From: Loxodes magnus
Lineage: Eukaryota; Ciliophora; Karyorelictea; Loxodida; Loxodidae
Reading direction: 5' to 3'
Assembly (NCBI GenBank): GCA_946699065.1
Contig: CAMPDV010000512.1
Coordinates: forward strand, 62,001-126,000
Length of the DNA: 64,000 nucleotides
Both the position numbers and the translations under genes were made by a program. The notes under the pieces are model-generated. The model saw nothing but the letters and a program-made list of their open reading frames with translations, was not told the DNA's origin and did not search any database. Each line of letters begins with the position of its first letter. Positions within the stretch are counted from its first letter, which is position 1. Of this stretch, positions 21,798 through 23,717 are shown in pieces.

Positions 21798-23717
21798 ATG
21801 GTTTCGGCAATGGACTAGGATTACATTATTAAAGAATCTACAATACAAAAGATTGGAAAGATAGCAAAGGGAGGTTTTGGTAAGGTTTACAAAGGTTTAA
21901 TGTAAGGAAGAACAGAGGTAGCTATTAAAGAGCTATATAATCAAAATTTAAGTTAAAAAGCGCTAGAAGATTTTTAAAATGAGATCGTGCTAATGTTCAG
22001 AATGAGGCATCCAAATGTAATTACCGTATATGGTTACTGTCAATCTCCATTGAGTTTAGTAATGGAGTTCATGCCTCGAAGTTTATTTCACTTACTTCAT
22101 AGTAACTAAGAAATGCCTTGGGATTTAAGATATAACATAAGTCTAGACATTGTATAAGGTCTTTTATATATTCACGAAAAGAAAATTATACATAGAGACC
22201 TAAAGAGTCTAAATATTCTATTGGACAAAAATTCGAATGCTAAAATTACTGATTTTGGTTTGTCAAGAATTAGAACAGAATCATTTTCTTAATAAACCAA
22301 GTCTGAAGTAGGTACTGTTAGTTGGATGGCGCCTGAGATAATGAGAGCAAAACCAAAATATAGTGTTTAATCAGACATTTTTGCTCTAGGAGTCACGTTT
22401 TGGGAAATAGCAGCGCGTAAAGTACCTTTCGAAGGAGCTAAGCCTGAATTTGTTAAAGATGACATCAAAGCAGGCGAGCGTGAAGAAATGCCAGAAGATT
22501 GTCCATAAGAATATCAGTAAATAATAACAAGTTGCTGGTTACAGAATCCAGATAACAGAGCAACTTTATAAGAAACATACGAAGCGTTACTGAAAATGTA
22601 AAAAGCATTTTAAAAGTAACCTGTTAACCCATTGCAAATTAACTAAAATCTAGCAACTAAGCAAGAATAAAAACCGATTTAAGAAGAAAGCAAATTTGTT
22701 TTACCGGCTAAAAATATCTAAATTCTAAAACCTGGAAATCAGTAAAAAAAGACTTAAGAAATAAACAAAACAGCAATACAAGTGTAAAAAATATTCGAAA
22801 TTTAGTACGACAAATCTCAAGGTAATTCTTTCATTAATTTAGACTAAGTTTTTACGGGCCATGCGGACTGAGTTAGATCTATTGCGATCTCTCCGGACCA
22901 GAAATGGATAGTCTCTGCTAGTAAGGATAAGACGATCAAAGTCTGGGGTTTCCAGACTGGAAGCTGTTTGAGGACTTGTACTGGCCATGCGCACTGAGTT
23001 TAATCTATTGCGATCTCTCCGGACCAGAAATGGATAGTCTCTGCTAGTGTGGATTAAACGATCAAAGTCTGGGATTTCCAGACTGGAAGCTGTTTGAGGA
23101 CTTGTACTGGCCATGCGGACTGAGTTAGATCTATTGCGATCTCTCCGGACCAGAAATGGATAGTCTCTGCTAGTGATGATAAGACGATCAAAGTCTGGGA
23201 TTTCCAGACTGGAAGCTGTTTGAGGACTTGTACTGGCCATGCGCACTGAGTTTAATCTATTGCGATCTCTCCGGACCAGAAATGGATAGTCTCTGCTAGT
23301 GTGGATTAAACGATCAAAGTCTGGGATTTCCAGACTGGAAGCTGTTTGAGGACTTGTACTGGCCATGCGGACTCAGTTTTATCTATTGCGATCTCTCCGG
23401 ACCAGAAATGGATAGTCTCTGCAAGTAAGGATAAGACGATCAAAGTCTGGGATTTCCAGACTGGACAGCTGATTCGGACTTTGGTTGGGCATTCTCATTA
23501 TGTGTACAATGCTTTAATAACATCGGATAATGGATTTCTAATATCGGCTTCGGAAGATTCGACAATTAAAATTTGGAATTTTGCTACTGGTGAGTGTATA
23601 TAGACATTGACGGGGCATGTTGGTTGGGTTTGGACATTGGCATTGAGTGTGGACAACAAGTGGATATTATCTGGAGGTGGAGACAAGGTGTTGAGGAAAT
23701 GGAGGATAGCGACATGA
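21798..23717 (+). CDS. TKL-type protein kinase fused to a seven-bladed WD40 propeller
   Basis: 639 residues, ATG at 21798, ending at TGA 23715-23717. Residues about 12-275 form a complete kinase domain: glycine loop [10 protein letters not shown] (24-33, the usual first Gly being Ala23), VAIK lysine 44, catalytic HRDLKSLN (132-139), DFG (152-154), APE (178-180) and a late DNRA (252-255). [12 protein letters not shown] and GTVSWMAPE place it in the tyrosine-kinase-like group. All catalytic residues are present, so it should be an active Ser/Thr kinase. A Gln-rich linker follows (about 276-350). Seven WD40 repeats of about 42 residues fill the rest, enough for one closed propeller. Blades 1-5 are nearly identical; 6 and 7 are diverged and carry no in-frame TGA. 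About 29 TAA/TAG codons must be glutamine. In-frame TGA codons at residues 358, 400, 442 and 484 occupy position 5 of blades 1-4, where blade 7 has TGG Trp, so they are probably Trp. If TGA is only a stop, the gene is broken just after the kinase. There are no signs of introns. Confidence 0.9.
22855..23478 (+). repeat. 126 bp WD40-blade tandem repeat, five near-identical units
   Basis: Five in-frame 126 bp units (42 codons) inside the kinase gene. Units 1/3 and 2/4 are alternating types, so a 252 bp pair has been duplicated. Differences sit at repeat positions 4 (Asp/His), 5 (TGA or Ser), 7 (Arg/Gln/Leu), 23 (Lys/Val/Asp), 25 (Lys/Gln) and 31 (Gly once, otherwise Asp). The only silent difference I found is GCT/GCA for the alanine at position 21. 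Unequal crossing-over or gene conversion must have homogenised the units recently, while the variable positions were kept different. Confidence 0.9.

Follow-up and report, generated by a model that had tools for sequence, protein, structure and literature searches.

A gene of the ciliate Loxodes magnus joins a protein kinase domain to a WD40 propeller whose near-identical blades vary mainly at five positions, and diversifying selection on this kinase-coupled propeller is well supported. The gene lies at 21798-23717 (+) of the window, the whole 64,000-nucleotide stretch that was analysed (C512:62001-126000 in forward contig coordinates), and encodes a kinase, a Q-rich linker and then seven WD40 blades. 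It probably specifies an intracellular kinase with a diversifying recognition propeller, in which blades 1-5 are homogenised by exchange and binding of a variable partner switches the kinase; the best reading of the blade arrays found at other loci is that they are either a by-product or a donor archive.

Exon 1 (21798..22821, +) encodes the kinase domain (Pfam PF07714, E = 1.3e-59), which we take to be TKL-like and whose motifs were read with their presumed meanings, together with the linker. It is open under code 27, where we assume that TAA and TAG mean glutamine, an assignment that fits the frame here. Exon 2 (22843..23717, +), read by translation, holds the propeller and ends with the stop TGA at 23715-23717. 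Alignment of paralogues places a putative 21-nt GT..AG intron at the kinase/propeller border (22822..22842, +), with the same length in L052 and a length of 20 nt in C512 gene 2, C1503, L051 and L054. Since the 20- and 21-nt segments both keep the frame if spliced out, they are read as introns, and a seeming frameshift between kinase and propeller in C512 gene 2 and C1503 is accounted for by the 20-nt intron; the window gene is open both with and without the segment. According to PMC11441545, L. magnus introns have a mean length of 19.3 bp with multiples of three depleted, and TGA means tryptophan or, near the 3' end, stop. Four of the five window blades carry an in-frame TGA at column 5, which is sense (W) only under the karyorelict code. 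A premature-stop reading of the gene was rejected: at a distance from the 3' end TGA can encode W, the rest of the frame is intact, and kinase and blades are also under purifying selection outside the five sites. Selenocysteine was dropped, since most paralogues have S or W at column 5. Over the window, neither Rfam at gathering score nor ARAGORN gave a match.

The propeller exon (22848-23714), modelled from its single sequence with AlphaFold2, folds as a closed ring (pLDDT 93.6, pTM 0.90), so that the one protein is predicted to combine a kinase with a closed seven-blade propeller. The preliminary description of this DNA had suggested such modelling and the mapping of the variable sites; the strand map of the model puts columns 4 and 5 in the stretch linking strand d to strand a, column 7 where strand a begins, and columns 23 and 25 in the stretch from strand b to strand c. 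The closest solved folds include the designed 7big, PkwA (5yzv) and 2ymu.

Blades 1-5 (22857..23486, +) start at 22857, 22983, 23109, 23235 and 23361 and are 126 nt each, giving a near-identical 42-residue WD40 repeat (126-nt period, 4.9 copies, 93% matches); they are followed by blades 6-7 (23487..23714, +), conserved terminal blades that genome-wide matches show to be common to the family. Over columns 1-35 (blade 5 deviates in columns 36-42, which were therefore excluded), the earlier claim that the blades are nearly identical and differ mainly at columns 4, 5, 7, 23 and 25 was borne out: the window blades have GAC or CAC at column 4, TGA or TCA at column 5, AGA, TAA or TTA at column 7, AAG, GTG or GAT at column 23 and AAG or TAA at column 25. 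Codon changes of two bases between blades, also claimed, proved real on re-reading. The claim of one silent difference stands for these columns (column 21, GCT/GCA, the sole one), but the accompanying list had missed an amino-acid change outside the five sites, at column 31 of blade 1 (GGT/GAT). Blades 2 and 4 are identical and blades 1 and 3 nearly so, which amounts to a two-blade duplication; this leaves few independent events in the window alone, and the wider family was therefore tested.

The genome was searched over 705,730,643 bases in 7,843 contigs. With the kinase as query, 116 of 4,459 first-look candidates were scored, and conserved terminal blades lie 1.2-1.85 kb downstream on the same strand in at least 38 of these 116, a lower bound because the pairing used 117 of 195 terminal-blade matches. 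Among the best 22 kinase matches, 21 have terminal blades 1.46-1.70 kb downstream, the exception being C1503, which is cut by a contig end. The kinase-to-terminal-blade distances cluster by linker length, and a distance of 1,455 bases suggests a missing blade, one of 1,701 bases an additional blade. Blade order is identical in all seven genes whose sequence was read at least through blade 6. A copy on C462 (540-1420 and 11838-13132), with a kinase match that ends at residue 317, is identical to the window propeller, flank and junction; it is a haplotig or a very recent duplication, and its blades (L053), equal to those of the window over 881 nt, were excluded from the gene counts. Further clusters of WD40 blade matches occur at C272:276186-353005 and C38:1362-6225, those on C38 being only 50-55% alike.

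Gene blades for the selection test were taken from C512 gene 2, C9, C620, C119, C6979 and C4046, plus two of C1503. Variation was concentrated in the wider family rather than spread evenly over the blade: among 36 unique blades (of 37) from eight genes, the columns richest in non-synonymous difference were 23, 7, 25, 5 and 4, which hold 78% of it, and with the window gene excluded (30 blades, six genes) the top five of 35 columns were again 7, 23, 25, 4 and 5, with 76%. The chance of the same five-column set under random ranking is one in 324,632. In seven genes, pN/pS was not below 1 but 1.42 at the five columns (bootstrap 1.13-1.88), and 0.17 (0.11-0.23) in the other 30 columns; these and the other selection figures are counting estimates, not likelihood codon models, for one assembly of one species, and the bootstrap intervals are rough because exchange makes blades non-independent. 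Diversity at first and second codon positions, which involves no pathway counting, was 3.78 times the fourfold-synonymous diversity at the five columns (bootstrap 3.00-5.80) and 0.20 times (0.13-0.35) outside them. Neither of the two patterns that the preliminary description had named as refuting it was thus seen in the wider family. Seven genes, with 35 blades between them, display 34 different five-residue combinations. Kinase exons had pN/pS of 0.22-0.27 (three pairs), indicating purifying selection, and that of the window is open. Blade pS, 0.12 in the other 30 columns and 0.14 in all 35 (36 blades, eight genes), was far below kinase exon pS (0.44-0.54, three genes), as expected if blades are homogenised between loci.

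These data are consistent with a mechanism in which the C-terminal seven-blade propeller would be under diversifying selection as a platform for recognition. Exchange between genes, and at one locus at least between gene and array, would keep blades 1-5 near-identical by concerted evolution, through a mechanism that we infer, while selection would retain new residues at the five sites in the d-a loop, at the start of strand a and in the b-c turn. By analogy with the HET-E model, where the corresponding elements form the binding face, a variable partner may bind this face and thereby turn the kinase on or off. Specificity would then differ from gene to gene, along with the particular variable blades that each one carries. 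A role in sensing self versus non-self or parasites, thus in immunity or allorecognition, is suggested by the analogy with HNWD.

An alternative interpretation is relaxed constraint, in which the five positions are merely exposed and tolerant and homogenisation erases variation elsewhere, with no selection for change. The five positions are indeed loop sites in blades that are homogenised, and blade 6 (7 sequences) varies most at columns 23, 33, 5 and 4 with pN/pS of only about 0.56 at the five columns (0.30 elsewhere); in comparison with blade 6, the excess over 1 is confined to blades 1-5, but since a blade below 1 varies at the same columns, the pattern may partly be plain tolerance of these sites. 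We nevertheless consider this interpretation unlikely, because relaxed constraint alone cannot raise first- and second-position diversity to 3.8 times the fourfold value in the same blades, or produce a pN/pS of 1.42 whose whole bootstrap interval exceeds 1, and homogenisation would hit the five codons as well.

The genome also holds long arrays of such blades. Exact copies of a 35-nt blade core number 3,462 across the genome, those in genes among them, and none matches the pattern read backwards. There are 717 gapless blades in 92 kb of C1503, 293 blades at the far end of C119, where the long array is away from the junction of the gene, 129 blades spanning the whole of C6957 and 27 blades in a 10-kb piece of C4046; blade matches with gaps or partial coverage were not counted, and the C1503 count is without gene blades. 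For the C9 array, 7 of 10 fetched loci were used (the others overlap), and an overlap of about 600 bases between L029 and L030 makes a few blades count twice. In the window, a two-blade remnant with a broken frame (10973..11224, +) occupies the junction where some paralogous loci hold an array, and is followed by a spacer of about 10.6 kb (11225..21797, +) that is duplicated along with the gene at other loci: window 11015-22550 matches C1503 at 92.6% over 11.6 kb, across the flank and into the kinase, and the spacer flank recurs at similar spacing elsewhere. No Pfam match up to E 0.01 was found in the three forward frames of spacer 11225-17226. The C1503 array stops mid-blade, without terminal blades, at the flank that follows the remnant in the window. 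With the blade/flank junction as query, blade sequence was found beside the flank at 24 loci, with 297 or more of the 300 bases matched at 13 of these, and 22 of the 24 have a kinase from the list of 116 matches 10.2-11.5 kb downstream. A long array stands at this junction in C1503, C9 (first core at 16358, flank to 16291) and C4046 (inverted); in C620 and C1832, the flank borders directly on blade sequence, with long arrays beginning from 22.4 and 39.5 kb, respectively. The arrays may include assembly error; in PMC11441545, the authors blame misassembly of repeats for the size gap between their two assemblies. At window 4-5685, in pieces of 70-83% identity, lies a reverse-oriented copy of part of the spacer that follows the remnant; this segment and the spacer align to C1503 6295-11626 in opposite orientations, so the unit includes a large inverted repeat.

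Whether the arrays are coding bears on a second rival, in which they are the main product, be it as satellite DNA or as giant WD40 genes, with the kinase genes as a side line. The sheer number of exact cores speaks for it, as do the 129 blades of C6957, which run with no frame change, and the pN/pS of array haplotypes outside the five columns, which is below 1 (0.04-0.45). Frame changes number 20 across 717 blades in C1503, 3 across 293 in C119 and 1 across 27 in C4046. Among rare codon alleles of five arrays outside the five columns, 18 of 59 are synonymous, which also fits neutrality (23% expected, p = 0.17), and the contrast with rare gene alleles (12 of 30) is not significant (p = 0.48), so that the case for array silence comes mainly from the broken frames. 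Common codon alleles in the same arrays and columns are synonymous in 16 of 26 cases (p = 3e-5), which may reflect few independent events. Taken as sequence, the array alleles fit silent copies of coding blades, of which the common ones would have passed protein selection and the recent ones not. The giant-gene reading is disfavoured for C1503 by its 20 frame changes and its mid-blade end, while the C6957 frame is unbroken; with terminal blades lacking at that end and blade number nearly fixed in the kinase genes, we regard the arrays as main product as quite improbable.

Gene and array share alleles at one locus, C4046. Blades 1-4 of its gene differ by 2, 0, 1 and 0 nt (over 105) from its own 27-blade array and by at least 4 nt from the arrays read in C1503, C119, C6957 and C9, and six codon alleles are common to this gene and its array and found nearly nowhere else; for blade 5, the own array is no closer. 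Gene blades of C9, of whose array parts were read, and of C1503 are not clearly closer to their own arrays than to others. The C9 gene and the C9 array do have three rare codon alleles in common, and window blade 3 equals a C1503 array blade over 105 nt. In all, 7 of 34 gene five-residue combinations are present in the arrays read, those of C9 and C4046 in part. A possible, if doubtful, extension of the recognition-propeller reading is that the upstream arrays are a silent archive that supplies the expressed seven-blade propeller with new binding faces through gene conversion. The spare WD40 blades at the conserved junction upstream of kinase genes, 717 at C1503 and two in the window, would be its stock, and the karyorelict code, with no obligatory stop codon inside a gene, would let codons drift (TNA at position 5 reading as Q, S, W or L).

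Mutational bias or targeted hypermutation, instead of selection, as the source of variation at the five codons is very improbable: although gene blades take all four NAC codons at column 4 and all four TNA codons at column 5 (for which TAA and TGA must be sense codons), and many codon pairs at columns 7, 23 and 25 differ by 2-3 bases, these last three positions obey no single base-change rule, and the sites track the protein surface and are selected in fungi as well.

The preliminary description had drawn the fungal parallel, and the hypervariable HNWD positions it gave, WD sites 10, 11, 12, 14, 30, 32 and 39, agree with those given in PMC12222747. With an offset of seven, five of these seven sites are the five most variable columns here, as it had stated; columns 3 and 32, which correspond to sites 10 and 39, are not conspicuous. 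The HET-E model, as described in PMC1805685, places the first pair of selected sites in the d-a loop and the second one in a beta-turn, all atop the propeller. By comparison with PMC1805685 and PMC12222747, the Loxodes genes share with HNWD proteins such as HET-D and HET-E of Podospora the 126-bp, 42-residue WD40 blades of high identity, concerted evolution, and diversifying selection at blade positions that match for five of the seven sites. The effector, however, is a kinase in Loxodes and HET-NACHT in HNWD, blade number is nearly fixed at seven in Loxodes genes and length-polymorphic in HNWD, and Loxodes has blade arrays outside genes (the comparison with Podospora covers genes alone). Neither NACHT nor HET is among the best 25 of 46 Pfam matches, which are all to WD40/propeller or kinase families, the other 21 being weaker; since, moreover, kinase and propeller fill all but about 80 linker residues, the window protein is not a member of HNWD or the NLRs. 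The earlier proposal of a kinase with a fast-evolving recognition propeller is partly supported: it holds for architecture, fold, family, sites and selection by counting, and the self/non-self or pathogen sensor that it envisaged would follow by analogy with HNWD.

Among other systems, the bacterial PkwA, named a kinase in the PDB, has a seven-blade WD40 domain like the window protein, and its propeller (5yzv) aligns to the window model with TM 0.94 and 34% identity. WRAP and other highly repetitive beta-propellers (2ymu, 7big) also have near-identical blades and match the fold with TM 0.95-0.96. For these, PMC9218822 suggests a role in innate immunity and counts about 70% of members as bacterial and 84% of the eukaryotic ones as fungal; in its main text, the words kinase and ciliat- are absent. 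In the open-licence PMC literature, no paper was found on Loxodes together with WD40, and, among the papers listed and judged by title or listing, no account of such a ciliate WD40-kinase family.

What is new here is the set of blade cores and large arrays, the 24-locus junction, the broken frames in three of four arrays and the near-private alleles shared at C4046. The intron, TGA as W and the blade arrays were absent from the preliminary description and are the more unusual part. If correct, the recognition-propeller reading would mean a second, distant appearance of an HNWD-kind recognition surface, this time in a ciliate and with a kinase in place of an NLR, and that evolution has repeatedly made fast-changing recognition platforms out of WD40 blades. 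The array-gene unit is a testable model for the generation of receptor diversity in a single-celled eukaryote, and an archive, if real, would generate a repertoire for a kinase receptor inside a eukaryotic cell. The L. magnus macronuclear assembly has 706 Mbp, of which 231 Mbp is tandem repeat (PMC11441545), and the blade arrays suggest an identity for a small part of it. Two other tandem repeats lie downstream of the gene in the window: about 20 copies of a 57-nt AT-rich repeat directly after the stop (23859-25029), and about 27 kb of 84-nt repeats with indels between copies (27011-54037), whose consensus, translated by eye under code 27, gives a charged unit of 28 residues.
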